In this document: positions 22,168 through 47,262 of the stretch, in pieces
Layout: the number at the start of each line of letters is the position of its first letter
Position numbering within the stretch: the stretch's first letter is position 1
Source: Pelobates cultripes
Lineage: Eukaryota; Chordata; Amphibia; Anura; Pelobatidae
NCBI GenBank assembly: GCA_933207985.1
Contig: OW240916.1
Span: forward strand, 321,430,737 to 321,494,736
Direction: 5' to 3'
DNA length: 64,000 nucleotides
Made by a program: the position numbers and the translations under genes
The notes under the pieces: model-generated
Seen by the model: only the letters and a program-made list of their open reading frames with translations
Databases searched by the model: none
What the model was told of the DNA's origin: nothing

Positions 22168-22211
22168 GTTGACTACAAACATGGATCCTGCCACATCAGA
22201 AAACGCCCCAG
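22168..22211 (+). CDS. exon with probable start codon
   Basis: The acceptor TTCACAG is followed by 13 bases and then ATGGATCCTGCC, giving MDPATSENAP and one base of the next codon. The donor is GTGAGT. A at -3 and G at +4 make a strong start context. The 13 bases before ATG are open in frame, so an internal exon is not excluded. Confidence 0.6.
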
Positions 22212-25200: not shown

Positions 25201-28200
25201 ACACTGAGTGCAAACAGATCTGCACCAGAGTGTGTAATAACCTGTGGAAATAAAAATATGGGGTATCACCACTAACACACAGAACCAACTCAGAATAAAC
25301 TCCACTTAGTGGACCCATGTACTAAATTTAACATCCAGTTGTGTCACTGATTTTATCAAGTTGTATAAATCCTCCTATCCATACGTACTGTATGGATAGT
25401 AGTATTTATCGAGATAAAATCTATTTTTGAAAGATTGACATCATCTTAATCTGGGTGACTTTACAGACTTTGTCACACTTCTGAATACTAACAATCTGAG
25501 ATTTGCAAGTGAAGTGGGGGGGTAGGAACCTTAATTTCTTGGATCTAACGGTCTGTATCGGAAAATCACCTCTAATGGTGTCCTGGACTGGACCAGCCAC
25601 CATTCACCAAGATTAAAGGCCAGTATCCCTGTTGGCCTATACCGAAGATTGCGCAGGAATTTCTCTTAACTTAAGGATTTTAAAACTAAAGCTTGCGATG
25701 TTAGAAAACCCTTTAGAGAAAAGGGATATCCTAATAGAGTACTCAAGAGAGCCTACTGCAGAGCAATCCGAGCCGACAGGGATGCTGTAAAACAGAATAT
25801 ATGGGATACCGGGCGCTTACAGCAAAAAAGAATACACAAGTGCAGCCTAAAACACTCAAAGTGTATTGTCACAAAGTACACTTAACCAGGCACAAAAATA
25901 CCACAGAGAAGTGTCAAAGCGCACACTGTGGTACTTAATTACCTTTAATTCAAAATAAGATGTAGTAGGTTTTTTCCCTTGGTAGGAACCCTAAACAATG
26001 TAAATACAAAGCAGAGGGACCATATTGTAACCTGTTTACATAAATATAACAGTGATACAATAAAAATGGAACACTCACACTTTCCAGAGCCCTTAGAGTG
26101 AACTGTAAGGGCATGTCCTCCACAAAAGGGATGGTTGTATAAATGTATCGTTGGAACCTTGAGGCTTCCAGATGAAAAGCAGGAACCAGGTAAAAGTATA
26201 ACTATATATTTATTCCAACTTGTAATTAAAACAATGATTTGTCATGTTCTGGAATTCTCTCAGTCCAAAACTCCACTGTCCTTAAATTCTGAATCATTAT
26301 ATACCCCATCCTAGAGTATATTCGGATGCTTCCGTGACTAATGGCTTTCACAGTACGTATGGATAGTATTATTATTCCAAGTTGATAACATCAGTGGCTC
26401 AGTCAGGACGTTAATAATTTCATTTAGTACATAGGTCCACTAAGTGGAGTTTATTCTGAGTTGACTATGTGTGTTAGTGGTGATATGTGCCACAGGTTAT
26501 TACACACACTCTGGTGCAGATCTGTTTGCACTCAGTGTTTCTATCTATCCATAATTTGGCTCCCTTGATCACTATGCAGGACTGTTTGATGCTAAGTTTT
26601 CACATTCATATAAGAGAAGTGCTTCAGATCTCACCAGACACACCAATCCCCGTCCTGTATGAACTCAATGATAGGAAGGATATACCCTTCCATACACCAA
26701 CAAGCCTTCTCCCAGCCATATCCTTTTTTTATGGGGTTTTGCCTTACCCTTACGGATTGTGAGTTTCTTACCATCTTGAAACATTTGTTTACATTTTAGG
26801 TGGCTCCCCCCCTCACCTTGCCACTCCTAGAGTTTTAACCAGTCAGGTTACTTAGGGGGGTGGGTTGATGACCTCCCACAGAGAACAGCTGATGGTACTT
26901 GTTAGTTAATGATAAGGACATAAAACTGACAGACAGGCTGCCCACAGTAGTATGCTCCTGACGACAGCTTGCTGACACGCGAAACGCGTGTCAATCTTTC
27001 TGTTTCTTTCCTTTCACACCTCACTAGGTAGCACAATTTTCATACCATTGTGTTTATCTTCTTTTTAGGGAGGTTTATTTCACGTTTTTCTTTTTCTTTG
27101 GCAAGCTGTAATAGGGAGAGATGGTTCAGGTAGACCTTAGTGGCTTGTCCACCGTGTCGAGGTAATCTAAGGGAAGGCCTTCTAAGTTTTTGTTAGGTTT
27201 GATTAGATTCTCCAATCTCCTACTTATCTTTCCCTCTTACCTGACATATCTGCCTATCCATTTAGTCGGTTGCTAGAGGGAACGGGGTACTTTAGCACCA
27301 TAATCATGGTAGTAACAGTAGTTACATTTTTGTTACACTATATTCAAGAGCTAAATTGTCTTCCTCTGGTTCCCCCATTTCCTGTGAGTTAGAGCACTGT
27401 AGCTCACATATCCCCGTTGCACCGTTTAGCTAATCTGCCTTTTTTCCTTTTGGCTTGCCTTTTATGCATATTCCTAGATTGATTAAAAGTTGGGTTTCCT
27501 TCCCTTTTCCCTCTTTTTATATTTTTATGCCAGTGAAGCCCCTGCCCCTAGTCTCTCTCAGTGGGACACTATATTTCCCACTTTTACGCTATTAGAGGGT
27601 TATGCCCTCATCCTATGAGCTCCACTATAGGTGGTCACAGGGCTGCAACCCACTAGCCCTTAATTTGCATCCAGGCTCCTGGACTGCACTGCTGTTTTCC
27701 TTTATCCTTTGTTATATTCAATATAAGCAAAAGTAGCTGTCAATAAGCTACAGTTTCTACTGGAACAAAGGTCTAGTTCTCACCCAAAAAAAGGCTATTT
27801 GAGACCAAAGGGGCCTCACTCCTTGGCAAGGACCCAAATCTATATCTATATCTTAATGGTAACCAGCTTGACAGTCTATGGGGAGAAATATCCAAAAATA
27901 CAGAATACATAAAAACCGGGCTGGGGAAAAAACAAGAAGATGTGTGAAAAAAAAAACCCCAAACTCTATCCATTTCAGTTCATTGACGTGGTCTGCGTGC
28001 AGTGCCCCTGTCAGTTTAACCTTGCCATAGTAATTGTTGCAGTTATCGAGAAACTGCAATAATAACCTTGCAGGGTTATCTCTACCTCTAGTGGCTGTCT
28101 AAAAGTCACTAGAGATGTTTTCAGATGATGAGGAAACTTTTGGTTGCCTAACTGACACTGGACTTCCTCACTCTATGCATGACAACATCAGCGTCCTATA

Positions 28201-31200
28201 GGATTGCCCTAATGCGATCACTAGTTAGTGCCGAGGCAGAGCCTGACCCTCGGCACTGGGTTTAGGTAAGTGACAAAGAGGTTATAACAAACTGGAGCCT
28301 GTTTTCCTTAGGACGTTTGGTTCTGACCTACACTGTCTGGCAATTCTTTTCCAATATGGAACTAACAAACGCGATACCACTGCTCCAGATCAGTACTTAG
28401 TTGTTCCATTCAGCTATATGAATATGTGAAATCTCTAACAAAGTCAGTCCTAAAACACTTTTTTTTTTTTTCTTCTCTGTCCCTATTCCACCTCCCTCTA
28501 TTTGTAGAAACTGCAAACAGTCAAGAACTTCCACCTGTGGGAAAAGAATCAGAACCACCTACTTACCCAGAACCTGGTAGGTCTATTGCTTTAGTTACAG
28601 GGTCCCTCCCAAATAATGTAAATATAAATATTTTGATAGATGCTGGATACGCCATCTTGTATCTGGCTCATTGTGGAAGTTGGCCACAACAAAAGCCAGT
28701 TCCAAACACTCCTGTAGGTTGAATATGCTATACTTACTGTTTTTACAAAGTACTGATACAATAACGGCAGTAAAAATATGCCTCTTGTCTCTCAAACCTC
28801 CCATCATTTAGCCCCTATGAACAGGTTTTATAGTACAGACCGCACTCATTACCTTTTTATTAGGGACAGGTCCAGTTCCTTACAGTGTGGTCTAGTGAAC
28901 ATGTAGCACCTCCACCAACTTGGTGTTTTAGAAGACACATTGGAATTTTGTATACATATCCAATCTTTCCTATTTACCCAATCTATTTTCAGAGATTGCA
29001 GAATGTCAAGCTATCCCTCCTCCGGTTCCTGATGCAGAAGAGTCAGAACAGCCTAAAACCGACCCAGAACCTGGTATGTCCATGTCTAGTCAGAGATCCT
29101 TGTTCACACATTGCAGTCCTAGAACGTTTAGCTGCTATCGCTGACCAAAGCATCATAAAGAATTTTCAAAACCTGTAGGTGTTTAAAGTAGCACGATTAC
29201 TTTATCATTTTAAAACCATGTTACTTCATTTCAAACAGAGCTGTAGTAATTGAGATTTACTTCTTTAATGTTTAAGTGTTTATATTGATAATGGGCAACA
29301 AGTGGTCATCTAACTGGTGGCCATCATGTAGAATGCCCACTGGCAGAGTAGCTAAATTTAGTCATCCAAATATAATGTGTAGAATGGCTGCAGTTACTCC
29401 CAGTCCAGAAATGTTTTTATTAAATTGTTATACCGCCTTGGTGTTTGAATTTGGTGTATCCTCATGGAAGCTCAGGTTTGGTTAAATTATTGCAGAAAGC
29501 TTCTGATTTATAGAGGTTATAAGGGAACACGTCAACTCGGTAAGAAGACCATTTGAGACACCGATCTTACGTCACCTAAACACATCATGCTAACTCTGCG
29601 AACAAAATCAGATACCTGGGCATTGAGTGCCCAATCCCAATGTAAAGGGAATTGGGACCGCAGATTGCGACAAAGAAAATCATATTAAATGTATAGACTT
29701 AACACACTTTCACCACACGGCCTGAATGAGGGTTTTTCCTTTTCTGCCTTTCTGTACAACTCTCTCTACAACATGGATTCAACAATGCTGAGTGATTTTT
29801 CTCAAGATCCCTACCTTTCTTTTCTATATCTATAGATATGTAAATATTTTAATTGTGAGCAGTCTCTTGTCATGGTTAGTAGTAATGTCGTTGTTGTGAC
29901 TGTGCTGTAGATGGACTACAGACACAATATATGTGTACTAACCAGCCACAATGAAAAAACATACCTAATAATGCACTTTCTGACTCTCCTAACTCTTTAT
30001 TCAGTCACCAAAATCAAACTGGCAGCTATAACCTAGTGAATACAAAGGTACATGAAGCATTTTGCACACCAACAGCCGTTGAGTTAATATATTGTGTATG
30101 AGATCCCCAAACGTGCTAGAATAACTTCATACTGGGGCAACTCCTGCAACTTTAATTTACCTTCAATTTGACTTATAATTACGATTATCACTAAATGCAA
30201 ACATAATTAACATTTATTTATTTTTACTTTATTTGTGGCTTTGTGCATCCTTGTTGAACTCCTTATATTAAAAATATTAAGAATCCCGTTTTTGGTTAGG
30301 GGACAAAATGAGAAATTCGTATAGACGTCCAGTATGACCGTCTCTGAGAACCGTACTAATTCCTCTCATTTAATGTAAATCCTCCCCTCTGTTTCAGTAC
30401 CAGAATTTGAGATTTGTTACGTGCCTGCACCTTAGCCATCTCCACCTGCACCAGTCTTGCTGACCGATGACGTATCTAACACCACTAACACAGAGCCTGG
30501 TAAAAGTGGGACCGGTGCTATTTATGTGACTGGTCTCCTTTTCAACCATCGAATTAACTGTTTTATATCCTAATCTTTAATGCTAGCTGTTACTGCTGGG
30601 CTGGGGTCATAACCATGTTTACTGATAATGAGTTTGTGCAGGGCCGCCATCAGAGCATGACAACCGCAACGGTTGTCATGGGCCCGGCGGTCCTTGGGGG
30701 CCCGGACTGCTCAGGTCGTCCGGGCCCCACATTCAGTGGGTACATACCGGGTCGCAGGGGGCCCTGCGACCCGGTATGTACCCACAGGGCCAGCCTCTTC
30801 TCCTGGGGGGCCCAGCAGCCGGTCACCTCAGGGCCCCCCAGAGGCTGGCCCTGCTGACACCCGGCGGGCCGGCGCGCGAGGGAGCACTCTCTGTGTGCTT
30901 AATCTTCAGCTCCCTCGCGCACCGTACTGATGCCGGAGCCGGAAGATGACGTCATCTTCCGGCTCTGGCATTAGTACGCGGCGCGCGAGGGAGCTGAAGA
31001 GGAAGCACACAGAGAGTGCTCCCTCGCGCGCCGGACGTCTGCAGGGAGAAAATGAGTGAGTGAGTGAGGGGGGAGAAAATTTGTGGGAGTGGGGGGGAGA
31101 GGGAGGGAAGAAAATTGAGTGGGCAGGGAGAGGGAGGGAGGAAATTTGAGTGGGGGAGAGGAAGGGAGGAAATTTGAGGGAGAGGAAGGAAATTTGAGGG

Positions 31201-34200
31201 AGGGAGAGGAAGGAAATTTGAGGGGGGAGGGAGAGGAAGGAAATTTGAGGGGGGGAGGGAAAGGAAGGAAATTTGAGGGGAGGGAGGAGAGAAGAAATTT
31301 GAGGAGGGGGGGAGAGGAAGGAAATTTGAGGGAGGGAGGGAGGAAGGAAATTTGAGGGGGGAGGGAGGAAGGAAATTTGATGGGTGGAGAAGAAGGAAAT
31401 GAGAGGGAGGGGGAGAAGAAGGAAATGAGAGGGAGGGGGAGAAGAAGGAAATAGACGGGGGTAGGGGGAGAGATTGACATCCATCACACACACACACAAT
31501 GCACCCCTTGCACACAGAAAAACACACAATACATTACACACAGACACATACACAAGCAATGCATCCCTTACACACAGCAACACACAATGCACCCCTTACA
31601 CACACTCAGTGCATCCCTTACAGACGCACACACTGCATCCCATACATACACAAACTCACCTTGGAGCCCTTACACATGCAAACACAGATTCACACAATGC
31701 ATTCCTTACACACATCAGGACATCCCCCCCCACACACACACCCCTGTGAACAAACTCATTGGTGAAACATAAAGGTGGACCCTGGGACCCAGACCTTGAG
31801 CTGTGTAAAGGGCCCTCAAAAAAAATGGTGCTGCTCCCCGTTCTCCCAGAACATTGATTTTTGTGACCACAGTCAGGGCCGCCATCAGGGGGTGACAACC
31901 ATAACGGTTGTCACGGGCCCGGCGGCCCTGGGGGGCCCGGCCACCCGGGCCCCACATGTGGGTCCCATCGGATGGCCACACACTTAGGGCCACCCGATGG
32001 GCCCTAAATCTTCAGTAGCCCGGTCAGCCAAAAAAAAGTCGCAAGTGCTGCTGGGAGGAAGTGGTCACTTCCTCCCAGCCCACTCCACGCGGGAGGAGCG
32101 CGCGGCCGGTTAAGTGGGAGAACCAGGCAGTGAAGAGGGAGCCGCGCCGACTCCCATCATCCCCAGCCACCCTCCTGCAAAGAAAAGGTAAGAGACAGGA
32201 GGGTGGCTGGAAAATGAGCTGTGTGTGTGTGTCTGTATGCATGTCTGTCTGTATGTGTATGCCTGTCTGTATGCATGTCTGTCTGTGTATGTATGTCTGT
32301 GTGTGTCTGTATGTATGTGTATGCCTGTCTGTATGCATGTCTGTCTGTCTGTCTGTATGCATGTATGTCTGTCTATGTATGTATGTATGTGTATGTCTGT
32401 CTGTCTGTAGGCATGCATGTATATCTATGTTATGTATGTCTGTCTGTGTATGTATATCTGTCGGTCTGTATGCATGTATGTGTATGTATGTCTGTCTGTA
32501 TGCATGTCTGTGTGTGTCTGTATGTATGTCTGTGTGTATGTCTATGTTTGTCTGACTGTATGCATGCATGTGTGTATGCATGTGTGTATGTATGTCTGTC
32601 TGTATGTATGTGTATGTCTGTATGTATGTCTATGTATGTATGCATCTATGTCTGTCTGTATGTCATTATATATGTATGTCAGTATGAATGTATGCCTGCA
32701 TATCATTATGAACGTATGTGTGTATGTGTGTATGGATGTCTGTATGCATGTATGTCTGTCAATATGTCTGTATATATGCATGTATGTCAGTCTGAATGTA
32801 TGTATGTATGTCTGTATGCCCTTATGAATGTATGTCTGTTTATGTCTGTATGCCATTATGAATGTATGTGTGTATGGATGACAGTGTCTGTATGTCTGTC
32901 AGTATGTCTGTGTGTGTGTATGTATGTATGCATATCGGTGTCTGTATGTATGTATGTGTCTTTATGTCCTCATGCATGTGTGTCTGTATGTATGTTAGTA
33001 TGTGTCTGTCTGTCACTATGTATGCCTGTGTGTATGTCTCAGTATGTATGCCTGTATGCGTGTATGTCTGTTTCAGTATGTGTGTCTGTTAGTATGTATC
33101 TCTGTCTTTTTGTATCAGTGTGTGTGTTTATGTCTGTGTGTGTTTTCCTGTGGGCGGTATTTGGAGGCGGACCCAGTGGGCGGTATTTGGAGGCGGGCCC
33201 CAGGGGCCCCAGACCCTGAGCTGAGTTAGGGGCCCCAAAATTTCTGGTGGCGGCCCTGACCACAGTTACAAATCGCCTCCAGAGAGCCTGTTCTACACCA
33301 GACCAATGGAGCCAGACGGCAGCTAGAGCCCATCATCAACCTCATCTGGTTGTAAGTAGGCAATCTAGTATATTATTCGTGGCACTAAGCTCTAATTTAC
33401 CTCACATTAAAGGGACACTATAGTCCCCAGAACCACTGCAGCTTAATGTAGTGGTTCTGGTGTCTATAGCCTGTCCCTGCAGGCCTTTAATTGTAAACAC
33501 GGCAGCACTGTGTTAGTTAACATGGCAGATCATATGGGTGGGGCATTGTGATGTCACATGGGAGGCGGCAAACTTTACTTTTGTCTAGGGCGGCAAAAAT
33601 CCTTGCACCGGCCCTGCAGACACTGCATCCCTGTGGGTGGACTCAGGGGGGGAGACTCGGGTGCAGGCACCGGGGGGCCCAGACCTTGAGCTGTGTCAGG
33701 GGCCCCAAAATTTCTGATGGCAGCCCTGAGTTTGTGCTCCGTGTTGGAGTATTATCTGTCTGTAATGGTAATCCTGGTGTATCCCTGTTTTCTAAATAAT
33801 TAACATTCATTTCTCCCAGAGGCCTCATCTCTCCAGACTACACCCTGTGATACCCCATGTTAAAGGGACACTATAGTCACCAAAACAACTTTAGCTTAAT
33901 GAAGCAGTTTTGGTGTATAGATCATGCCTCTGTGTCACTGCCCAATTATCTGTCATATCAGAGTTAAATCACTTTTGTTTGTTTATGCAGCCCTAGCCAC
34001 TCAAATCACCTGGCTGTGACACACACAACCTGTAGAAGGCAAAATGGCTTGATTTTCTATCAGTTATAACTAACTTTAAAAGTTGTGTTTTTTTTTTTTT
34101 AAATCTCCTGCTCTGTAAATTGAACTTTAATTACACACATGAGGCTATTAAAGCAGGAAATAATAAATTATATTATTCCATACGTACTGTAGGAATGTTT

Positions 34201-37200
34201 GATGCTAAGTTTTCACATTCATATAAGAGAAGTGCTTCAGATCTCACCAGACACACCAATCCCCGTCCTGTATGAACTCAATGATAGGAAGGATATACCC
34301 TTCCATACACCAACAAGCCTTCTCCCAGCCATATCCTTTTTTTATGGGGTTTTGCCTTACCCTTACGGATTGTGAGTTTCTTACCATCTTGAAACATTTG
34401 TTTACATTTTAGGTGGCTCCCCCCCCCCCACCTTGCCACTCCTAGAGTGTTAACCAGTCAGGTTACTTAGGGGGTGGGTTGATGACCCTGTATGCCCTTC
34501 TCTGTGACCTCCCACAGAGAACAGCTGATGGTACTTGTTAGTTAATGATAAGGACATAAAGCTGACAGACAAGCTGCCCACAGTAGTATGCTCCTGACGA
34601 CAGCGTGCTGACACGCGAAACGCGTGTCAATCTTTCTGTTTCTTTCCTTTCACACCTCACTAGGTAGCACAATTTTCATACCATTGTGTTTATCTTCTTT
34701 TTAGGGAGGTTTATTTCACGTTTTTCTTTTTCTTTGGCAAGCTGTAATAGGGAGAGATGGTTTAGGTAGACATTAGTGGCTTGTCCACCGTGTCGAGGTA
34801 ATCTAAGGGAAGGCCTTCTAAGTTTTTGTTAGGTTTGATTAGATTCTCCAATCTCCTACTTATCTTTCCCTCTTACCTGACATATCTGCCTATCCATTTA
34901 GTCAGTTGCTAGAGGGAACGGGGTACTTTAGCACCATAATCATGGTAGTAACAGTAGTTACATTTTTGTTACACTATATTCAAGAGCTAAATTGTCTTCC
35001 TCTGGTTCCCCCCATTTCCTGTGAGTTAGAGCACTGTAGCTCACATATCCCCGTTGCACCGTTTAGCTAATCTGCCTTTTTTCCTTTTGGCTTGCCTTTT
35101 ATGCATATTCCTAGATTGATTAAAAGTTGGGTTTCCTTCCCTTTTCCCTCTTTTTATATTTTTATGCCAGTGAAGCCCCTGCCACTAGTCTCCCTCAGTG
35201 GGACACTATATTTCCCACTTTTACGCTATTAGAGGGTTATGCCCTCATCCTATGAGCTCCACTATAGGTGGTCACAGGGCTGCAACCCACTAGCCCTTAA
35301 TTTGCATCCAGGCTCCTGGACTGCACTGCTGTTTTCCTTTATCCTTTGTTATATACAATATAAGCAAAGGTAGCTGTCAATAAGCTACAGTTTCTACTGG
35401 AACAAAGGTCTAGTTCTCACCCCAAAAAAGGCTATTTGAGACCAAAGGGGCCTCACTCCTTGGCAAGGACCCAAATCTATATCTATATCTTAATGTTAAC
35501 CAGCTTGACAGTCTATGGGGAGAAATATCCAAAAATACAGAATACATAAAAACCGGGCTGGGGAAAAAACAAGATGATGTGGGAAAAAAAAAAAAACAAA
35601 CTCTATCCATTTCAGTTCATTGACGTGGTCTGCGTGCAGTGCCCCTGTCAGTTTAACCTTGCCATAGTAATTGTTGCAGTTATCGAGAAACTGCAATAAT
35701 AACCTTGCAGGGTTATCTCCACCTCTAGTGGCTGTCTAAAAGTCACTAGAGATGTCTCCAGATGATGAGGAAACTTTTGGTTGCCTAACTGACACTGGAC
35801 TTCCTCACTCTATGCATGACGACATCAGCGTCCTATAGGATTGCCCTAATGCGATCACTAGTTAGTGCCGAGGCAGAGCCTGACCCTCGGCATTGGGTTT
35901 AGGTAAGTGACAAACCTAAGAGGTTATAACAAACTGGAGCCTGTTTTCCTTAGGACGTTTGGTTCTGACCTACACTGTCTGGCAATTCTTTTCCAATATG
36001 GAACTAACAAACGCGATACCACTGCTCCATATCAGTACTTAGTTGTTCCATTCAGCTATATGAATATGTGAAATCTCTAACAAAGTCAGTCCTAAAACAC
36101 TTTTTTTTCTTCTTCTCTGTCCCTATTCCACCTCCCTCTATTTGTAGAAACTGCAAACAGTCAAGAACTTCCACCTGTGGGAAAAGAATCAGAACCACCT
36201 ACTTGCCCAGAACCTGGTAGGTCTATTGCTTTAGTTACAGGGTCCCTCCCAAATAATGTAAATATAAATATTTTGATAGATGCTGGATACACCATCTTGT
36301 ATCTGGCTCATTGTGGAAGTTGGCCACAACAAAAGCCAGTTCCAAACACTCCTGTAGGTTGAATATGCTATACTTACTGTTTTTACAAAGTACTGATACA
36401 ATAACGGCAGTAAAAATATGCCTCTTGTCTCTCAAACCTCCCATCATTTAGCCCCTATGAACAGGTTTTATAGTACAGACCGCACTCATTACCTTTTTAT
36501 TAGGGACAGGGCCAGTTCCTTACAGTGTGGTCTAGTGAACATGTAGCACCTCCACCAACTTGGTGTTCTAGAAGACACATTGGAATTTTGTATACATATC
36601 CAATCTTTCCTATTTACCCAATCTATTTTCAGAGATTGCAGAATGTCAAGCTATCCCTCCTCCGGTTCCTGATGCAGAAGAGTCAGAACAGCCTAAAACC
36701 GACCCAGAACCTGGTATGTCCATGTCTAGTCAGATTTCCTTTTCTGCCTTTCTGTACAACTCTCTCTACAACATGGATTCAACAATGCTGAGTGATTTTT
36801 CTCAAGATCCCTACCTTTCTTTTCTATATCTATAGATATGTAAATATTTTAATTGTGAGCAGTCTCTTGTCATGGTTAGTAGTAATGTCGTTGTTGTGAC
36901 TGTGCTGTAGATGGACTCCAGACACAATATATGTGTACTAACCAGCCACAATGAAAAAACATACCTAATAATGCACTTTCTGACTCTCCTAACTCTTTAT
37001 TCAGTACTGGGGCAACTCCTGCAACTTTAATTTACCTTCAATTTGACTTATAATTACGATTATCACTAAATGCAAACATAATTAACATTTATTTATTTTT
37101 ACTTTATTTGTGGCTTTGTGCATCCTTGTTGAACTCCTTATATTAAAAATATTAAGAATCCCGTTTTTGGTTAGGGGACAAAATGAGAAATTCGTATAGA

Positions 37201-40200
37201 CGTCTAGTATGACCGTCTCTGAGAACCGTACTAATTCCTCTCATTTAATGTAAATCCTCCCCTCTGTTTCAGTACCAGAATTTGAGATTTGTTACGTGCC
37301 TGCACCTGAGCCATCTCCACCTGCACCAGTCTTGCTGACCGATGACGTATCTAACACCACTAACACAGAGCCTGGTAAAAGTGGGACCGGTGCTATTTAT
37401 GTGACTGGTCTCCTTTTCAACCATCAAATTAACTGTTTTATATCCTAACCTTTAATGCTAGCTGTTACTGCTGGGCTGGGGTCATAACCATGTTTACTGA
37501 TAATGAGTTTGTGCTCCGTGTTGGAGTATTATCTGTCTGTAATGGTAATCCTGGTGTAATCCTGTTTTCTAAATAATTAACATTCATTGCTCCCAGAGGC
37601 CTCATCTCTCCAGACTACACCCTGTGATACCCCATGTTAAAGGGACACTATAGTCACCAAAACAACTTTAGCTTAATGAAGCAGTTTTGGTGTATAGATC
37701 ATGCCTCTGTGTCACTGCCCAATTATCTGTCATATCAGAGTTAAATCACTTTTGTTTGTTTATGCAGCCCTAGCCACTCAAATCACCTGGCTGTGACACA
37801 CACAACCTGTAGAAGGCAAAATGGCTTGATTTTCTATCAGTTCTAACTAACTTTAAAAGTTGTTTTTTTTTTTTTTTTAATCTCCTGCTCTGTAAATTGA
37901 ACTTTAATTACACACATGAGGCTATTAAAGCAGGAAATAATAAATTATAAATTAAACAGAATTTGCAATAAAGGAAGTATAAACATGACATGACTCTTTA
38001 CAGGAAGTTTTTAGGAGGGCTATGTAAGTCACATGCAGAAAGGTGTGACTAGGGCTGCATGAACAAAGAGATTTAACGATCTATACACCAAGACTGCTTG
38101 GTTAAGCTAAAGTTGTTTTGGTGACTATATTGTCCCTTTAAATAGTTATATCATTGTATTTGTGGCTTATGCTCTCCCTACAGTTTTTTTAAAATGAGTA
38201 TTCAATACAGTATTGGAACTCAGTATACAGTATCTCACAAACGTGAGTACACCCCTCATATATTTGTAAATATTTAATTATATCTTATGTGACAACACTG
38301 AAGAAATGACACTATGCTACAATGTAAAATAGTAAGTGTACAGCCTGTATAACAGTGTAAATTTGCTGTCCGCTCAAAATAACTCACATCCATTAATGTC
38401 TAAACTGTTGGCAACAAAAGTGAGTACACCCCTAAGTGGAAATGTCCAAATTGGGCCCAATTAGCCAATTTTTCTCCCCAGTGTCATGCGACTCGTTAGT
38501 GTTACAAGAAGCAGGTGTGTTACATTTGGTGTTGCTCTCATACTGGTCACTGGAAGTTAAACATGGCACCTCATAGCAAAGAACTCTCTGAGGATCTGAA
38601 AACCAAATTGTTGATCTACATAAAGATGGCTTAAGACCCTGAAAATGAGCTGCAGCATGGTGGGCAAGACCATACAGTGGTTTCACACAGGTTCCACTCA
38701 GAACAGGCCTCGCCATGGTTGACCAAAAGTTGAGTGCACATGCTCAGCGTCATATCCACAGGCTGTCTTTGGGGAAATAGACGTATGAGTGCTGCCAGCC
38801 TTGCTACAGAGGTTGGGGGGGAGGAGGTCAGCCTGTCAGTGCTCAGTCCTTAATCACACACTGCATCAAATTTGGTCTGCTTGGCTGTCGTCCCAGAAGG
38901 AAGCCTCTTCTAAAGATGATGGACAAGAGAGCCCACAAACAGTTTGCTGAAGACAAGAAGACTAAGGACATGGATTACTGGAATGTCCTGTGGTCTGATG
39001 AGACCAAGATAACCATATTTGGTTCAGATGGTGTCAAGCATGGTGGTGGGAGTGTCATGGTCTGGGCCTGCATGAGTGCTGCTGACACTGGAGAGCTACA
39101 GTCCATTGAGGGAAACATGAATGCTAACATGTGCTGTGACCTATTGAAGCAGAGCATGATCCCTTCCCTTCAGAGACTGGGCCACAAGGCAGTATTCCAA
39201 CATGATAACCCCAAACACACCTCCAAGACGACCACTGCCTTGCTAAAGGTGATGGACTGGCCAAGCGTGTCTCCAGACCTAAACCCTATTGGGTAGCTGT
39301 TGGAGAGCGTAAGGTCTCCAACATCCACCAGCTCCGTGATGTCCTCATGGAAGAGGACTCCAGTGCCACCCTGTGAAGCTCTGGTGAACTCCATGCCCAT
39401 GAGGGTTAAGGTAGTGCTGGAAAATAATGGTGTCCACACAAAATATTGACACTTGGGCCCAATTTGGACATTTCCACTTAGGGGTGTACTCACTTTTGTT
39501 GCTAACGATTTAGACATTAATGGCTGTGTGAGTTATTTTGAGGGGATAGCAAATCTACATTGTTATACAGGCTGTACAGTTACTACTTTACAGTGTAGCA
39601 GTGTTTTCACATGCAATATTTACAAAAATGTGAGGGGTGTACTCACTTTTGTGAGATATTGTATGTCACCAATGGGAGATGTATAACTAACATAATTTTT
39701 TTTTTCTTCTTAATTTCATTATCAACATGTCATGGAAGATTTGGCCAAGTGCATGTGTGCAATCCTTTAGGGCATTTAACGATCCTTTAGGACAATTTAG
39801 CGAGCCATATATTATCCCTATGACGCTCTAAATACCTTGTTCCAATTGCCTCTAATGTAGATCTCATTCAATACACATTCTCTTACAACTCTAGGCCTTT
39901 TAACAATATTGCTCCAATTCTTTCACATCCCTCATTCATGACCCAAGAATTTGCTACTTGTTTAAATGGCAAGGATCGGGAACTTGCTTGTCTCTATAGC
40001 TTCCGGTTTACTATGTGTGCAGCCACATGGCCCTGTGATCCTTTCCTATCCACTTAATATTTTCACTTGTATTTAATATCTTACTTTATTTACCTTCAAG
40101 CACACACTTTATTCTATCAAACTATTATCCACTCTCGTTTCCCTGTTAATCAACATCGTTATTTCAAGGAGTTTAGATTATTTCACTCTTCTCTGACTGT

Positions 40201-43200
40201 CTTGCATTTGTGTCTGTAAAGCGGAAAAAACCCCACCAAAACAACCATACAAAAGCTGTTTTAATGACATGATCTTGGCAAAATGTAAATGAACTTCCCT
40301 ACGAAGTCGAGACTGTTAAACTTCTCTACCTACTTTACTCCATAGACATTTGATATATTTCTGGTTATCTCCAATTGTTCCTTCTCTTCCTATTGCACCT
40401 TCCTCTTAATGAAAATGTTTACTCTAATCCTTTATCACTACACATCTTCTCTTGGCCATCATATACTTTTTATGAGTTATAATCAAACTTGCCTGTCCTA
40501 TAATTATTTGTAGAAGATGAACAATGTAGTAACCAGGACATCTTATTCGTTCTGTCTGGGTTTCGTGTGCAGTTTTTAATCTTTATTTTACTCTTTATTC
40601 AATGTATCCAGTGTTGCTATAGAATATATTGTTGCTATATGGGTAAAGATAATCCTTAGCATGAACCAATACATTATTATATTATACTAGATAACGCTGT
40701 AAGTAGGGGTTGGCTCCTCCACAAAGTGAATTCAGCTGCTGAATATATCTGAGTTGGTCTCTACATTCCTCTTCTGATTCTAGAAATAGCTGTCTGTCCG
40801 ATTTATGGACCAGCAACTACACAAGAAAACAATGATGAATCCAAACCTTCTGAAGATTCAAACCCTGGTTAGTTTGGAAGATTCTGACTGTAGTAGGGGA
40901 GGAGGGAGGGGAATGAAATGAGGGGCTGTAAACTAATTTTATGGAACTACAAATCACAAAACAAGCAAAACCGTTTATTCATTATGTTTTCATTTATTTT
41001 GTGATATGTTAATATGGCTTTTCAAAGCTACAGACACCGAATGCACAAATCTACTTGGCTTATACCCTCACCAGATCTTCATTAAAAAAAAAAATCTACA
41101 CCTTACAAAAACCCCTACAGTTTTTCTGTCTTCTTGTATTTGTCCCCTCTTCTTGTGAACTTAGACTTTATACTTCACTTATTGGCACTGATCTTAAACC
41201 CAACTGTCTGGTTTCAGTGTGTGGTTGTTCTGCTCTTTACTCTGTATGTTGTACTGCTGTACAATTTATTGATGTAATGAAGATAATCCTGAGAACATAT
41301 TGTATTAATACTGTAAGTAGGACTAGGCTCCTCAGTGATGTGAGCTGCAAAATATATAGTATTTGACTTGGTCTCAATGTATTCTTGATTCTAGATGTAG
41401 CTGGACCAGAAACTACACAAGAAAACAATGATGAATCCAAACCATCTGAAGAGCCAAAACCTAGTATGTTTAGAAGTTTTCAATTTTAGTAACCCTTCTC
41501 CTCTTAACAAACATAGCATAGACCTTCATAGAATCTTCACACCATCAAGGATACCTTCTATACAAAACCCTCCACAACCTGGCTTTTATTTATTTTTTGT
41601 CCCCTCCCCCCCCCGACCCTTCCCAATCTCTTCTGACAGGTTTACACTCTCCACATCGCTCCTCAATTACTGTTTAAGGCTCTGCACACGCTGTCTTGAA
41701 CTCTTAAGATGACACGACCCATTGTAAATGTTTTACTAAATCATTCTAAAGGCCTCTAACAAGGCCCCCTCTATTACTATTAGCCCATTAAATCCACCAT
41801 CTGGCACATAGAAATCCATAGTGTAACTGTGTTTCTTTACTCACGCGTGGAATCCAAAAACTGGAGGAACACCTTTTTTGCTCCCCTCAAACGCAATTGT
41901 TTAATGACATCGTGGACACTGGAAAGGATCTAATTAGTATCTTATTTTTTCACATTTTATTTTTATTATAGTGTTGTAGAATTTATTTGTGCTATATAGG
42001 TGATGAGGAAGATAACACAGAGATCTTACCAATAATTGAGTGTGTTATACTAGATAATACTGTGAGTAGGGTTATCCTCCTCCTTCCAGAGTGAATTCAG
42101 CTGCAAAAAATCTGAGTTTGTCTCCATGTATTCCTCTCCTGAATCTAGAAATAGCTGTCTGTCCAATTTTTGGACCAGCAACTACACAAGAAAACAATGA
42201 TGAATCCAAGCCATCGGATTCAGAACCTGGTAAGTTTAGGAGCTTTCAGCTTTTCAAACACTTCTCCTGTTAACTGCTGTCTTACTTCTAATGTTTATTG
42301 CTATGAATGTTGTAGTTGTACTACTTCAAAGAACGTCAGCAAAATTTTTCTAAATGTGTCTTTTCATATGTATTAACTAGTCTAACCAATGTGGCCATAT
42401 GTAAATGTCCTAATGACCTGTGCCGTCTCCTGGTTCTGATATGATATACTAGTTTAAGTACCCGCCTCCTGGTCTGTGTTTATGCTTGAAATGGGGCGAG
42501 TTTAACTAATACTAGTGTAACTTCTGCATGTTGGCCGTCTTAAGGAACACTTTATCATTGAATACATCTTTGTATTCATAACACTAACGTGCTCTGCAGT
42601 CCCCTCCCTGGGTCCCTGCTAGCTGTAAAGGGTTATAATAAACCTTTATTCACTTACCTGATGCCGCGCTCCTCTTCCTCAAACGTCTTCCAAAAGAGGA
42701 GATAATGCACATTAGGCCTTCACCATAGGAAAGCATTGCCTCACTGCTTTCCTATGGGGCTCTATCTGACATTGGACGTCCTCATGCAGAGCGTTGGGAC
42801 ATTCAGAGTCACTCTGTGACACTCCAGGTAGCGCTTATAATAGCTGTCTGTAGACTGCCACTAGAGGCAGTCTTAATACTCTAAAACTGCAATGTTTCAC
42901 ATTGCAGGACTATGGGTGATGGGGACACTGCACCCAGACCACTTCAATGGTATGAAGTGCCTATAGTGTGCTTTAAGCATATAGAACTTTGGTATAACTA
43001 TTTAGGGGACTGAGTGGACCACTGTATAAAATTGACAATGATTCTTCATAAGTGATGGTGAAGATAGGGCAGTCAGTGGGTGTGAAGAAAATCCTAGGTT
43101 TAAATCAAACAATTTCTGAACAAAGGCATGCTAGGCAGCATAGCATCATGTTTTTGTTGATTAGAATGACTGACATATGTTGTACTTAGCTGCTCTCCCT

Positions 43201-46200
43201 AAAACTAGATCTTGTGTATCTAATGATTATCTGGTCTCTACCTCCAGTTGCTATAGCCTGCCCATTGGAACCACCACTAGAAAATCCAGGTCAATCAGAA
43301 CCTTCTAAAGAACCAGAACCTGGTTAGTATGTTTGTGCAATTTGTTTCCATGTTCAATTCTGTATTTAATGTTTTTTGTTGCCAAGTTCTGTCTGCCAGT
43401 CTCTCTAGTCTGAGTGGTCAGTTCGAACTGACACGCCATCTGACTGTTTGGGGCTCATTGCTTTTAGTAAGATCTGGTGTGGGTTTGTTATCTCTTTGTA
43501 GATAGTGGTAGGCTGTTTGTTTTTTCGGAAACTTCAGCAGTCTAGGCCAGCACATTCTCTAATTTCCTGCCTACGGGCACTGTTTTTATTTAATTGGTAG
43601 ATCTGTGTATGTTCAGTTGGTCTCTGTATTGGCAGAATACATTGGTTCAGTTTGTTATAAGGAAACCTCATGGTAAGTTTCAGGTGTAACTAATAACTAT
43701 ATCTCCATACTTGTACTAGTATCTACTTACTTGTATTACAGGTACACTATCTGCAATCACAAAACTATCTTGACAGCCAGGATAAATCCAGATAATTTGT
43801 TGCAGAGCTGTAACAGTGGAAAGTGGGGAATTTGAAAACTTAAAGGAGCACTATAGGAGTATTAGCTCCACCCCTCCTGCTGGGCTTAAGGGGTTAAAAC
43901 CCCTTCAGCCACTTACCTTAATTTAGCACCGGGATCCCTCGTTGCTCGTGACCTCAGCTCCAAATGCACATGCACAGCAAGAGCAGTGCGCGCATCCAAA
44001 CCACCCATAGGAAAAGCATTACTTAATGCTTTCCTATAAACGTCAGCGTCATCTCCGTATGATTTTTCAGAATCGCGGTAGACAGCCACTAGAGGCTGGA
44101 TTAACCCTCAATGTAAACATAGCAGTTTCTCTGAAACCTATTTTCAGCTGCAGGGTTAAAAACAGGGGGACCTGGCAGCCAGACCACTTTATTGAGCTGA
44201 AGTGGTCTGGGTGCCTATAGTGGTCATTTAATGTGAGCCTTCCTTGTGCACCCCATATTCCTTTGTCCTCTCTTTGGTGAGAGTTGAAGTCAGACACTCT
44301 GTACATCCATGGAGTTGCCTTTAACAGGGCTGGATCAACTGGAAGAGGGACTGTGCTCTCCTTGCAAACCTTGAAAAAGGAGAACTGCCCACCGTCAGAG
44401 GACCCAGAAAATACTGGAGCATATGTAGTACTTAGAACGTTAATATCCTGACCTAAACAGCCAAGTGGGTGAAGTTATTGGTATGCTCCCATATTTTGTC
44501 CAGGAAAACCTATTTTTTTTTTTTTTTCCCAAAACTGCTTAAAGCATACACTTTTTTTTTTTTTAACCCCTTAAGGACCGAACTTCTGGAATAAAAGGGA
44601 ATCCTGACATGTCACACGTCATGTGTCCTTAAGGGGTTAAACATACAACAGAAAATCCCTGTACAAATTTGTATTCTTGTGAGCGTGTATTTATACAGCA
44701 GGGATAGAAGTTGGGTACCATGAGAGCTCAATTTCTAGTCAAGCAGTTTACCCAAAAACTGGAGGATCACTACACTATGTTATAGTGCTCATTAGACTTT
44801 ATTTTCTATTTTTTGTTTTGAGCTAATCTAAATCACTTTTTTTTTTTAATTTTTATTTATCCCCACTGGAATAAATAAATCTGGCCGTGATTTACTTGGC
44901 GTCTTATTCAATGGATTACAAGAAATTGATTCGGACAAAAGCCTAAAATCGTTTCCAAAATGCAATATCTAGGATAGGGTTGTTTAATTGGCTGTCAGGT
45001 CAATAAAAAAGGGAATTGGGGGCATATACTGTTTCCGGAGGAATAACCGGAAAAAACTGCAGAAGCCACACATAGAGATATGGACCCAAGTCTTCAGGAA
45101 GTAACAGGTCTTGGACACTGATCGGGTCTCAGATGAACTCCTGTTTCAAAAATATTTGAGAGGCAGAAAGCATGGTGCAGAGGCCCTTTGTTAGCAGCAT
45201 ATCCCCTCCCATAAAGTATAACCCCTCCTATATTCTTCAGACCAATCAGCACACAGGAAATTCAGGATCACCTTATATGGGCAGAGCACATGGCTTGTTA
45301 AAGACAAAGGAATGTACTATCCACTTCCACACATGCTCAGTATACTGATGACTCATCCAGCTGTTTGTAATCAGATACTAATTAGCATGCGCAACGTGGA
45401 GATTTCGGCCTTCTAAATTTTGACAATGCAGGAATCCCATCACAATACAAAATACAGATTAAGGAACAGCGCACATGACTTTAAAAGCTGCCAAATCAAT
45501 GGCACCTTAAAAGGTCCTTGCAGTTTGTACTCATTCCCTTTCAGATCTGATACATCCAGTGACTCAGAAAAATATAATATGTGCAGGCATACATGCAGTA
45601 GGATAGTGAGTGATGCACACATTTATCCTCCAAACCATGTATCCCTTTAAGCTAAAAACTGCATTGTTGGTGAGTCTATACACACACTTCATGACCCATA
45701 GTTTGAGTCAAAATACAGAGCCTTAATAAAATCTAACTTACTCCTTTCTAATGTGATCTGGCTGTCCAGTCATGCAGTAAAAACCCTCCCTATTTCACAT
45801 GTATTTTTAAACTTTAGTAAATTTAATATTTCTTTTTCTCCGTTCTAGAAAGCAAAGATCCTGAGGAGACGCCTCTTTCTCGGCTGCTTTCTCTACAAAA
45901 TTCCGACGGGTTCTGGGCTCCCAATGAGAAACTGGCCTCTGCCTTGGGAGTATCGGAGGGCTTCAATGAAAACCGTCCAGAGGTAACGATCACTGCTGTG
46001 GTAAACTAAATGATTGTATGGTTCAGATTATCCAACTATCTCTAATTTTAAATCCATGATAAACATGTTCTGTATAGCATCTTTCCTTACATTTATTTAC
46101 TAGACCACATTTATTGAAATGCCTTTCATGGATCGCTTGTGCCAGAAAAAGGTAGTAAACAAAATAAAAATAAAAAATAGATTTTATTTCCTGACACCAC

Positions 46201-47262
46201 TTCCTGTATTACCAGCAGCTGCATGATACACACGGTTTTCTTTTAACTACTGGGACTGTATAATTCCTTATTCTCTATCAGAAGTTCCATTGTCCACGTA
46301 GGTCCAAGGACTAGGTGTGCTATACAAAGATCTATTCAAAATAAATGGACTGATTAGAAAATGTAACTTTTATAGTTAAAACATTCCATTCCTTGTTACT
46401 CAGGCAATTTGTCAGCTGAACAATACAAAAGGATTAATCCTACTACAAAGCAATAATTGGTATTGTGATAAGACTATTGAGGAGAAGTTGGAACAGGGCA
46501 GTTACTAACCCTCATTCATTATTAATTTATATATATATTTTTCAACCCGTAGCTTCTTTACTGGCCTAAAGGTTAATTATAGAGTTAATTTGTCACCAGG
46601 AGTCTTCATTCTACATGTACTCATGGAAGTGAGCCCTAGTTTGTTGCCATACTTATAAACCATACCCAGAGGATGGTGTGCCTGCTCCCTTTGCCAGGCT
46701 GGGGTAAATATATCTTCTAATCTCTTCCAGGAAGCCGATGTTCCATTTTGGGCTACTGTCCTAGCGGTGCTTTCACTTCATGGATCTTTCACCGAGCAGA
46801 AGGAAGAGTGGGGTTCTCAGGGAGAGAAGGCGGTGTCATGGCTCCAGTCCAAAAATGGTAATGTGTCAATGGTTGTTACTGTGTAATGACGACTAGATTG
46901 GAATTAACCACTGGTAGCTGCACACAGCAAGCCAGTAACAAGCTGTCTGACATTGGTGGAAGTTGATTGGATTTGTATGTGTACTTTTAGCACGCATAAC
47001 TAGTTTTATTCAACAGCTTCTTAAAAGCATTTACAACGTCACATGGACCATCTAAAATGCTAAAGACCTCCCACTTTTCCTCTCTATATTGTTCCCATGG
47101 TGAAAGGATAGACATTTAGAGGTACCTTGTAAGTCACAACTTTCTCACTTTTGTCCAAGCTTAGATCTGTTTTTACTTACAGAACCTGCCTTGAATGATT
47201 TGGTCAAAGCTGGGAATGAATTGCTGAAAACGTCTGTGGAAGTTGCTGTATTTGGCTTGTGA
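22181..47262 (+). CDS. multi-exon host gene: VWA5A-like C-terminal domain behind a Pro/Glu exon-repeat linker
   Basis: I assembled this gene by eye from splice signals. Exons: 22168-22211 (ATG at 22181 in AAACATGG), 28508-28576, 28993-29073, 30398-30499 (stop), 36148-36216, 36633-36713, 37273-37374, 40784-40867, 41395-41463, 42149-42229, 43248-43322, 45849-45982, 46731-46857, 47183-47262. Every linker exon is a multiple of 3 with phase-1 junctions, so any one can be skipped. Without 30398-30499 the product is about 360 residues. The last three exons code for LLSLQNSDGFW, WATVLAVLSLHGSF and EKAVSWLQ, ending VAVFGL-stop. This pattern resembles the C-terminal region of VWA5A and PARP4. No VIT or VWA domain exons were seen. 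The ATG exon could also be internal, because it is open upstream of the ATG. Confidence 0.7.
22785..23785. mobile_element. non-autonomous hAT element (CAGGGC-ended)
   Basis: The ends are inverted: CAGGGCTGCCATCAG at 22785 and CTGATGGCGGCCCTG ending at 23785. They are flanked by a perfect 8-bp duplication, ATTACATA, at 22777-22784 and 23786-23793. No transposase is present. The interior is a pyrimidine-rich CATTCATTCCTCCC repeat (22915-23440) and GC-rich sequence with a strong hairpin. The long Ser/Pro/Phe/Ile frame over the repeat is not a gene. Confidence 0.92.
23639..23688. repeat. 23-bp perfect hairpin
   Basis: The arms at 23639-23661 and 23666-23688 are exact reverse complements with a 4-base loop. 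They include CATACCGGGTCGCAGG. A near-identical hairpin with 24-bp arms lies at 30736-30785 in the related element. Confidence 0.95.
24281..24765. mobile_element. piggyBac-type MITE
   Basis: TTAAAGGGATTCTCCAGTGC opens the element and GGAGTGTCCCTTTAA closes it, with TTAA at both ends as target site. It has no coding capacity. It appears to lie inside an older element of the same type: a MITE-like start (AAAGGAACACTACAGT, 24259) precedes it. Confidence 0.8.
25085..26660 (+). mobile_element. second Penelope-like element with inverted arms
   Basis: Arms of about 310 bp at 25085-25395 and 26352-26660 are inverted copies of each other with few changes. They share GAGATCTGAAGCACTTCTCT on the reverse strand and the block around GGAGCCAAATTATGGATAGA. 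Between them on the plus strand is a short RT remnant. This matches the arm-core-arm plan of the element at 2056-4682, but the arm sequences differ, so it is another family. Confidence 0.7.
25425..25790 (+). pseudogene. Penelope-like RT remnant
   Basis: Across shifting frames the plus strand reads NLRFASEVGG, LNFLDLTVCIGK, IPVGLYRRLRRN and REKGYPNRVLKRAYCRAIRA. These are blocks found after the catalytic motif in Penelope-type RTs. Stops and frameshifts break the protein; the catalytic core and GIY-YIG domain are absent. Confidence 0.65.
26661..28507. other. intron sequence of block A
   Basis: No exon was recognised. The stretch holds an 8-bp-stem hairpin, GACACGCG-AAA-CGCGTGTC, near 26971-26990. 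Around 28010-28110 there is sequence like the interior of piggyBac-type MITEs. Confidence 0.4.
28508..28576 (+). CDS. linker exon A1
   Basis: 69 bases, phase 1 on both sides. Acceptor TTTGTAG, donor GTAGGT. It codes for the segment TANSQELPPVGKESEPPTYP then EPG, rich in Glu and Pro. Its copy B1 differs by Tyr to Cys. Confidence 0.7.
28993..29073 (+). CDS. linker exon A2
   Basis: 81 bases, phase 1 on both sides. Acceptor CTATTTTCAG, donor GTATGT. It codes for EIAECQAIPPPVPDAEESEQ then PKTDPEPG. It is identical in sequence to copy B2 as far as I can see. Confidence 0.7.
30398..30499 (+). pseudogene. linker exon A3 with in-frame stop
   Basis: 102 bases, phase 1 on both sides, acceptor CTGTTTCAG, donor GTAAAA. 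It starts VPEFEICYVPAP and then has TAG at 30433-30435. The copy B3 has GAG there. Because the exon is phase-symmetric it could be skipped without a frameshift; if included, the protein would end here. Confidence 0.7.
31874..33258. mobile_element. hAT element nested in the previous one
   Basis: CAGGGCCGCCATCAG starts at 31874 and GGTGGCGGCCCTG ends at 33258. The 8-bp duplication is ACCACAGT at 31866-31873 and 33259-33266. Most of the interior (32220-33150) is a TATG/TCTG microsatellite, which opens Cys/Val/Tyr/Met-rich frames that are not genes. Confidence 0.92.
32220..33150. repeat. TATG/TCTG microsatellite
   Basis: About 930 bases of TGTATG and TGTCTG variants in mixed order. The repeat opens a 332-codon frame on the plus strand with no real protein content. 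Confidence 0.95.
33408..33492. mobile_element. piggyBac-type MITE fragment
   Basis: TTAAAGGGACACTATAGTCC followed by CCAGAACCACTGCAGCTTAA matches the end of the MITE at 37637. No right end was found. Confidence 0.55.
33575..33616. mobile_element. terminus of another hAT-type repeat
   Basis: GGGCGGCAAAAATCCTTGCA then CCGGCCCTG has the form of a hAT-type end (CAGGGCCGG on the other strand). Only one end was seen. Confidence 0.4.
33820..33863 (+). other. possible exon A4, cut by a MITE
   Basis: An acceptor, TTCTCCCAG, opens a phase-1-compatible frame, EASSLQTTPCDTPC, which then meets TAA inside the TTAA target of a MITE. A weak donor (GTGATA) 27 bases in would keep the frame. It could be a decayed exon or a chance acceptor. 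The same sequence is in block B at 37597. Confidence 0.25.
33860..34172. mobile_element. piggyBac-type MITE, truncated by the duplication junction
   Basis: This is the left 313 bp of the MITE that is complete in block B at 37637-38141. It is cut where block A ends. Confidence 0.85.
34173..34190. other. 18-base filler at the duplication junction
   Basis: TTATTCCATACGTACTGT belongs to neither duplicated end. TCCATACGTACTGTA also occurs at 25378-25392 in the left arm of the Penelope-like element, and its reverse complement near 26350 in the right arm. Confidence 0.7.
36148..36216 (+). CDS. linker exon B1
   Basis: Copy of A1: 69 bases, phase 1 on both sides, acceptor TTTGTAG, donor GTAGGT. One coding change against A1, TAC to TGC (Tyr to Cys). 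Confidence 0.7.
36633..36713 (+). CDS. linker exon B2
   Basis: Copy of A2: 81 bases, phase 1 on both sides, same acceptor and donor. Confidence 0.7.
37273..37374 (+). CDS. linker exon B3, open
   Basis: Copy of A3: 102 bases, phase 1 on both sides. The codon at 37308-37310 is GAG, so the frame stays open: VPEFEICYVPAPEPSPPAPV and so on to NTEPG. Donor GTAAAA. Confidence 0.7.
37637..38141. mobile_element. piggyBac-type MITE, complete
   Basis: It opens TTAAAGGGACACTATAGTCA and closes with an inverted copy (GGTGACTATATTGTCCCTTTAA is the last 22 bases). The terminal inverted repeats run for about 40 bp with few mismatches. TTAA is the target at both ends. Confidence 0.9.
38228..39661 (+). mobile_element. 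Tc1-type transposon
   Basis: Long inverted ends of about 230 bp start with CAGTATCTCACAAACGTGAG at 38228 and finish GTGAGATATTG at 39661. Both are flanked by TA (38226-38227 and 39662-39663). The inner part of each arm has GAGTACACCCCTAAGTGGAA or its complement. The 1.43-kb size, TA target and transposase identify the Tc1 group. Confidence 0.93.
38563..39449 (+). pseudogene. Tc1-type transposase, inactive
   Basis: It starts MAPHSKELSEDLKTKL and ends VHTKY-stop, close to the usual 340-residue length, but stops and frameshifts break it. The longest open part (38916-39296) has WSDETKI with the first catalytic Asp, GGGSVMVWACMS, and FQHDNPKHTS with the second Asp, though the next Asp of the usual DNDPKHTS is missing. 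The last motif reads SPDLNPIG and then a stop where the catalytic Glu is expected. Confidence 0.9.
39664..40607. other. intron, unassigned
   Basis: No exon or transposon end recognised. Confidence 0.4.
40784..40867 (+). CDS. linker exon 5
   Basis: 84 bases, phase 1 on both sides. Acceptor GATTCTAG, donor GTTAGT. It codes for EIAVCPIYGPATTQENNDES then KPSEDSNPG. Confidence 0.7.
41395..41463 (+). CDS. linker exon 6
   Basis: 69 bases, phase 1 on both sides. Acceptor GATTCTAG, donor GTATGT. It codes for DVAGPETTQENNDESKPSEE then PKP. It lacks the CPIYG segment of its sisters. Confidence 0.65.
42149..42229 (+). CDS. linker exon 7
   Basis: 81 bases, phase 1 on both sides. Acceptor GAATCTAG, donor GTAAGT. 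It codes for EIAVCPIFGPATTQENNDES then KPSDSEPG. Confidence 0.7.
42540..42976. mobile_element. piggyBac-type MITE
   Basis: TTAAGGAACACTTTATCATT opens and CTATAGTGTGCTTTAA closes it, TTAA at both ends. The interior shares the CACCCAGACCACTTCA phrase with the other MITEs. Confidence 0.75.
43248..43322 (+). CDS. linker exon 8
   Basis: 75 bases, phase 1 on both sides. Acceptor CCTCCAG, donor GTTAGT. It codes for VAIACPLEPPLENPGQSEPS then KEPEPG. It is related to the other linker exons by its ACP start and PEPG end only. Confidence 0.68.
43840..44231. mobile_element. piggyBac-type MITE
   Basis: TTAAAGGAGCACTATAGGAG opens it and CCTATAGTGGTCATTTAA closes it, with TTAA at both ends. Confidence 0.8.
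44563..44640. mobile_element. 78-bp palindromic MITE
   Basis: TTAACCCCTTAAGGAC at 44563-44578 is the exact reverse complement of the last 16 bases at 44625-44640. Only 46 bases lie between. The TTAA ends suggest a piggyBac-type target. Confidence 0.7.
44641..45848. other. intron, unassigned
   Basis: No exon recognised. It ends in a pyrimidine-rich tract and the acceptor TTCTCCGTTCTAG. Confidence 0.4.
45849..45982 (+). CDS. exon 9: start of VWA5A-like C-terminal domain
   Basis: 134 bases, phase 1 in and phase 0 out, donor GTAACG. It codes for ESKDPEETPLSRLLSLQNSD, then GFWAPNEKLASALGVSEG. The L-x-x-L-Q-x-x-D-G-x-W pattern and the following LA..LG are shared with the C-terminal regions of VWA5A and PARP4. 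Codon positions look conserved and no defect is visible. Confidence 0.78.
45983..46730. other. intron, unassigned
   Basis: No features recognised apart from the donor GTAACG and the acceptor CTCTTCCAG. Confidence 0.4.
46731..46857 (+). CDS. exon 10: middle of VWA5A-like domain
   Basis: 127 bases, phase 0 in and phase 1 out, acceptor CTCTTCCAG, donor GTAATG. It codes for EADVPFWATVLAVLSLHGSF, then EKAVSWLQSK after an Glu/Lys-rich stretch. WAT-x-LAV-x-x-L and KA-x-x-W are typical of the family's C-terminal helices. Confidence 0.8.
47183..47262 (+). CDS. exon 11: end of the gene
   Basis: 80 bases with acceptor TTTTTACTTACAG, coding to VEVAVFGL and a TGA stop at 47260-47262. The final helix and hydrophobic F-x-L end fit VWA5A-type C-termini. 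Confidence 0.8.

Follow-up and report, generated by a model that had tools for sequence, protein, structure and literature searches.

Can the C-terminal domain (CTD) of a VWA5A protein be kept as a gene of its own, without the VIT and VWA domains of the full-length protein? This question is raised by a locus of the western spadefoot toad, Pelobates cultripes. The locus lies within a stretch of 64,000 nucleotides (the window; contig OW240916.1, C5:321430737-321494736) of a 3.09-Gb genome whose assembly was published in PMC9164646. It consists of a chain of exons on the plus strand, at 22168..47262 of the window, that joins a start exon, a linker rich in Pro, Glu, and Ser, and a CTD. Judged from sequence, the gene is probably real, already present in the databases under an ill-fitting name, and a truncation variant of VWA5A. 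A lineage that keeps only the VWA5A CTD, conserved in two species, would be a natural experiment on what this domain does alone.

The exon chain and its database models

The first-pass annotation of this DNA described an ATG exon in strong context, about ten Pro/Glu/Ser-rich exons bounded by phase-1 introns, and three exons for a CTD. This chain is confirmed. A single open frame runs from the ATG at 22181 to the TGA at 47260-47262 and encodes 360 residues plus stop when the exon copy at 30398-30499 is omitted; all exons past the first are preceded by AG, all donors are GT, and a protein of a second species, Pelobates fuscus, matches the chain. Ten linker exons are indeed present in the DNA. 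Their lengths are all multiples of 3, with phase-1 introns on both sides, so any of them could be skipped or duplicated without a change of frame. However, this count includes a tandem duplication, and the first copy of exon E4 contains a TAG. Two existing database models cover the gene, namely P0001 of P. cultripes (335 residues) and P0002 of P. fuscus (341 residues, "protein TsetseEP-like"). The features are listed below.

15026..15189 (+), upstream exon used by P0001; ATG at 15026; P0001 peptides map there; no counterpart in P. fuscus P0002
22168..22211 (+), start exon; ATG 22181-22183 with A at −3 and G at +4; codes MDPATSENAP; ends in phase 1
26575..34187 (+), tandem duplication unit 1, holding copy 1 of E2-E4 (blastn blocks against unit 2)
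28508..28576 (+), linker exon E2 copy 1 (P0002 tblastn match, splice signals)
28993..29073 (+), linker exon E3 copy 1 (P0002 tblastn match, splice signals)
30398..30499 (+), linker exon E4 copy 1; in-frame TAG; missing from P0001
34188..37949 (+), tandem duplication unit 2, with ∼3.8 kb of unit 1 missing (blastn blocks against unit 1)
36148..36216 (+), linker exon E2 copy 2 (splice signals, phase 1)
36633..36713 (+), linker exon E3 copy 2 (splice signals, phase 1)
37273..37374 (+), linker exon E4 copy 2; open; 32/34 residues identical to P. fuscus
40784..40867 (+), linker exon E5, EIAVCPIYGP... (P0002 tblastn match)
41395..41463 (+), linker exon E6, DVAGPETT... (P0002 tblastn match)
42149..42229 (+), linker exon E7, IAVCPIFGP... 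(P0002 tblastn match)
43248..43322 (+), linker exon E8 (P0002 tblastn match)
45849..45982 (+), domain exon d1 of the VWA5A-type CTD; 3′ intron in phase 0, the same phase as in the C5:323 paralog
46731..46857 (+), domain exon d2; 3′ intron in phase 1
47183..47262 (+), domain exon d3 with the stop TGA; ATTAAA polyadenylation-like signal downstream at 47366-47371

P0002 starts at MDPAT, that is, at the same ATG, and its first ten residues are those of the start exon. In a tblastn comparison of P0002 with the window, the linker and domain exons were all matched at E ≤1.5e-4. The start exon is the exception, since its 10/10 identical residues (E 0.18) are too short for significance. Such exon-by-exon agreement with a second species is evidence for a gene rather than a random run of splice-like signals. 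P. fuscus has one extra linker exon, for which tblastn found no counterpart in the window (best match 41%, to E3). P0001, in turn, is 100% identical to the window gene over the CTD. It uses one E2 (copy 1, judged by its Tyr), one E3, of which both copies encode identical protein, and no E4. Ahead of MDPAT it carries 59 residues, almost all of them from the exon ending at 15189, which is possibly a 5′ untranslated exon and has a GC donor (AG/GCAAGT). Because gene finders seldom predict GC donors, the P0001 model may reflect a complementary DNA. The name "protein TsetseEP-like" is a misfit, as the relatives of P0002 are VWA5A proteins; it probably derives from the Glu/Pro-rich linker. The database entry thereby gains its true relatives.

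Within the duplication, the unit 1 blocks 26575-29101, 29735-30005, 30126-30639, and 33727-34172 are 97.4, 99.0, 98.7, and 99.6% identical to unit 2, respectively (blastn), and the exon-bearing copies span 28508-30499 and 36148-37374. The P. fuscus model has the E2-E4 set once. The duplication may be real, or else a haplotype artefact.

A C-terminal domain of VWA5A type

The final 113 residues of the window gene are 49% identical to the CTD of a Spea VWA5A, 50% to that of Pelodytes, and 54% to that of the P. cultripes paralog at C5:323. Identity is 41-54% to 10 of the 11 aligned relatives and 38% to the remaining one, a shark. The window gene and the C5:323 paralog agree in the phases of their CTD introns (0 and 1), and in a tree of 52 domains both Pelobates stand-alone proteins fall within the pelobatoid VWA5A genes (98/89). 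Identity, intron phases, and tree thus bear out the resemblance to the VWA5A C terminus that had been noticed at first. Genome-wide, CTD exons gave seven matches, three in the window gene and four divided between the VWA5A loci C5:323.67 and C5:292.18. In an AlphaFold2 prediction (46 sequences), pLDDT averaged 92-97 in the ten-residue blocks of P0001 residues 231-330 and was <60 over most of the linker.

Between P. cultripes and P. fuscus, 111/113 CTD residues are identical (98%). The corresponding figures for the C5:323 paralog are 108/111 for the CTD and 543/557 for the assembled VIT-VWA exons. Because these values are comparable, the stand-alone CTD appears to be about as constrained as full-length VWA5A. 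The start exon and six linker exons are identical at 163/173 residues, with E2 left out on account of an indel.

Search for VIT and VWA exons

A tblastn search with five full-length VWA5A queries gave no convincing VIT or VWA exon in the 100 kb upstream, in the window, or in the 40 kb downstream. The 204 kb of searched text contain N runs of 2,442 and 100 upstream (2,542 N) and 23,000 N directly after the window, leaving 17 kb of readable downstream sequence. At E <0.1 the five queries matched CTD exons only, with linker exons E7 and E5 at 0.8 and 2.0; as a positive control, the same queries matched 12 to 15 places each at the C5:323 locus at E ≤1e-3. Precomputed Pfam annotation lists no domain for P0001 or P0002. 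The proposal of a short stand-alone protein lacking VIT and VWA is therefore supported, both by the models of two Pelobates species and by the empty search.

A genome-wide VIT search returned 14 matches. Comparison of Spea P0009 with 12 of these loci, and with three VWA loci as well, gave exon identities of 53-93% at C5:323.65 and C5:292.2 only; a VWA locus on C10 reached 45-53%, and the remaining loci gave 30-44% or no match. The C5:323.65 and C5:292.2 loci each own CTD exons. At C5:323, VIT, VWA, and CTD exons were seen, and at C5:292 examination covered VIT and CTD exons, both of which are present.

The probable full-length counterpart

The linker motif E[IV]AVC of the window gene recurs in Spea, Pelodytes, and Xenopus VWA5A proteins that are full length. 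A search pattern, E[IV][AVE][AVE][CS] with P or G coming no more than a few residues after it, occurs in the linkers of 6 of 127 proteins (P0001, P0002, P0009, P0049, P0093, and P0095). P0123, in which the domain anchor was not located, was left out of this count, and the pattern is strict enough to miss X. tropicalis P0081, which carries EIAVCYW. In Spea P0009 the motif reads EIAVCSIFGPESDS, and in Pelodytes P0049 it reads EVAVCTIYAPTTES.

In the CTD trees, P0009 is paired with P0049 at 94/88 (52 domains) and 92/89 (26 domains), and more weakly so in the VIT-VWA tree (92/65), whereas the P. cultripes C5:323 gene groups with Leptobrachium (98/93, VIT-VWA tree). The C5:292 gene groups with Pelodytes_a and Spea_c in the 52-domain CTD tree (92/76) and has no clear place in the other two trees. 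Since the linker motif is shared, and since P0009 and P0049 pair while C5:323 goes with Leptobrachium, the full-length counterpart of the window gene is most likely the lineage of Spea P0009 and Pelodytes P0049. A genome search with E5-E7 gave three self matches and no second P. cultripes copy at a useful E-value (fourth match, E 5.5), nor did it find another Pelobates member of the P0009/P0049 lineage. In Pelodytes ibericus P0049 (982 residues) the linker is expanded to many copies of EAKTESEETSDQT; this protein may belong to the same gene lineage as the window gene.

Other elements in the window

On the minus strand, 50130-57350 holds a series of long open reading frames. Judged by eye, these look like retroviral env, pol, and gag proteins, and an endogenous retrovirus probably lies there, downstream of the gene. 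On the plus strand, 16718-17010 matches an Rfam small-subunit rRNA model (microsporidia, 82.4 bits, model positions 38-330). GC and CpG are raised around this stretch, which is probably an inserted rRNA gene fragment. A plus-strand open reading frame at 38781-39296, within the intron that separates E4 copy 2 from E5, looks by eye like a Tc1/mariner-type transposase.

Discussion

Our best reading is a truncation in the Pelobates lineage, for which orthology, translation, and function are all inferred from sequence. In its full form, this reading holds that the gene goes back to a VWA5A paralog of full length, in which VIT and VWA were lost while a disordered linker of repeated exons and the helical CTD were kept, and that the free CTD acts in trans; we hold it tentatively, at somewhat less than even confidence. 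Several observations count against it. One E4 copy (30398-30499) carries an in-frame stop, although the copy at 37273-37374 is open, and E2 differs by an indel between the two species (67.9% identity). The 26-domain CTD tree leaves the sister group of the stand-alone proteins undecided among four groupings, none of which was rejected by the approximately unbiased test (p-AU 0.377 with P0009/P0049, 0.21 with C5:323, 0.107 with C5:292, and 0.113 with Xenopus). Moreover, of 40 near-invariant CTD sites, defined as those kept in ≥90% of 124 relatives (isoforms counted, P0123 and P0127 dropped), 11 are altered in P. cultripes and 13 in P. fuscus. The two proteins thus retain 29 and 27 of these sites, against relatives' medians of 1 altered and 39 retained, and the sole relative with at least 11 altered sites is Anolis P0128 (12 altered, 28 kept). 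Among the altered sites are the tryptophan in IWLH and the whole of the ELLE motif, the loss of which could mean either a changed interface or a lost ancestral binding surface or function.

These alterations would suit a decaying relic, that is, a truncated VWA5A copy without selected function whose frame can still be joined since its decay is recent. The same can be said of the stop in E4, of the different linker exon content of the two species, and of the long stem branch of the stand-alone Pelobates pair, which measures 1.08 changes per site in the 52-domain tree and 0.92 in the 26-domain tree. We nevertheless consider a relic possible but doubtful, given that the CTD is conserved between the species at the level of the C5:323 paralog, that the start and frame are preserved in both species' models, and that the CTD fold is still predicted with high confidence. 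The gene might alternatively be a full-length VWA5A whose VIT and VWA exons are hidden in an assembly gap or lie farther upstream. Two interruptions of the assembly, a join of 100 N and a gap of 2,442 N, do precede the window at a distance of no more than 42 kb; 23,000 N follow it, and P0001 includes an exon that lies ahead of 22168. In addition, a place ∼96 kb upstream of the window weakly resembles part of the VWA5A body (residues 554-591 of P0009, 44.7%, E 0.17) and has a poorer repeat nearby; we take this resemblance as chance. However, the P. fuscus protein begins at MDPAT, the 100 kb upstream contain no convincing match, and, among the loci compared, both P0009-like VIT loci have CTD exons of their own. 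Hidden exons are thus a highly improbable explanation.

The first-pass annotation had further suggested a vault-binding or vault-competing factor that would bind the major vault protein (MVP) through a PARP4-like domain. PARP4 is indeed the first of two matches of the CTD profile to the PDB, at residues 1571-1607 (LLSLQxxDGFWxLxxEL), and its MVP-interacting domain has been observed attached to the wall of the vault (PMC13174449). However, that match is weak (E 0.29, 37/115 positions), and PARP4 is not among the best 50 of 383 aligned chains in a structure comparison, although it may stand lower in that set. In addition, the available text of PMC10450202 gives VWA5A no equivalent of the conserved PARP4 Arg1689, with a root-mean-square deviation of ∼6.5 Å, and the window protein, with its altered near-invariant positions, is more diverged than canonical VWA5A. 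The domain comparison stands for VWA5A, where homology is clear, but is weak for PARP4. Vault binding is not supported and seems unlikely, and we give very little credence to a vault-binding or vault-competing role.

Returning to the truncated VWA5A with a free CTD, the mechanism that we prefer, by analogy, is a trans effect on full-length VWA5A. The targets of the free CTD would be VWA5A proteins whose genes lie on its own chromosome. It would take the site normally filled by the CTD of the full-length protein, or take that domain's partner; such occupancy would release or block VWA5A autoinhibition, with the linker serving as a flexible spacer. The analogy comes from Dictyostelium, where overexpression of the Vwa1 C-T fragment blocks development, but not if the vwa1 gene is disrupted, and where isolated Vwa1 domains are proposed to act via release of autoinhibition (PMC10539598). 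The two other VWA5A genes at C5:323 and C5:292 share a chromosome with the window gene, and a CTD-only protein alongside them would be placed to act like Vwa1 C-T. The same study tempers this analogy, since Vwa1 C-T also bound heat-shock proteins, which its authors read as partial misfolding, and since a Vwa1 vWFA fragment had a similar effect. It describes the part that VWA5A plays as a tumour suppressor as poorly understood, and the available text of the VWA5A literature yielded no settled role for the CTD. That a freed and reshaped CTD became fixed in Pelobates because it inhibits or activates full-length VWA5A is a more specific proposal, by the same analogy, and one that we rate as rather unlikely. 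It would make the protein a natural fragment of the dominant-negative type, which to our knowledge is otherwise known only as a laboratory construct.

Comparison with known systems

It is useful to contrast the window gene with full-length VWA5A (BCSC-1 / LOH11CR2A), which has the VIT and VWA domains that are lacking here. The closest comparison is with Spea bombifrons P0009 and Pelodytes ibericus P0049, which share with it a CTD (49 and 50% identical) and the linker motif E[IV]AVC-I-[FY]. They differ in size, at 801 and 982 residues versus 335-360, and the conserved W and ELLE of the domain are lost in the window gene. Xenopus vwa5a gene 2 (P0093, P0095) likewise has a linker of repeated E[IV]AVC-like units, but it is full length, with VIT and VWA, and its CTD lies on a separate tree branch. 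The PARP4 MVP-interacting domain (MVPID/MINT) is linked to the window gene by the weak profile match across 37 positions. It is longer (human 1570-1724), sits behind catalytic and VIT/VWA parts, and contains the Arg1689 that, according to the available text of PMC10450202, VWA5A lacks.

Two further proteins pair a C-terminal domain of this type with no VIT or VWA part, or may do so. An uncharacterised protein of Mobula birostris, P0127 (310 residues), has several ∼20-residue repeats followed by a VWA5A-type domain. It is possibly a second stand-alone case, or else a translated minisatellite: it resembles the window gene in having a repeat-rich N-terminal part ahead of the domain, but its repeat LLRHPLDKWEYLAAVTRIAR looks like a translated minisatellite, and it is a candidate gene model only. 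The Dictyostelium Vwa1 C-T fragment is an engineered construct from a very distant protein, and its trans effect was shown in Dictyostelium only; like the Pelobates protein, it is an isolated C-terminal region of VWA5A type without VIT and VWA.
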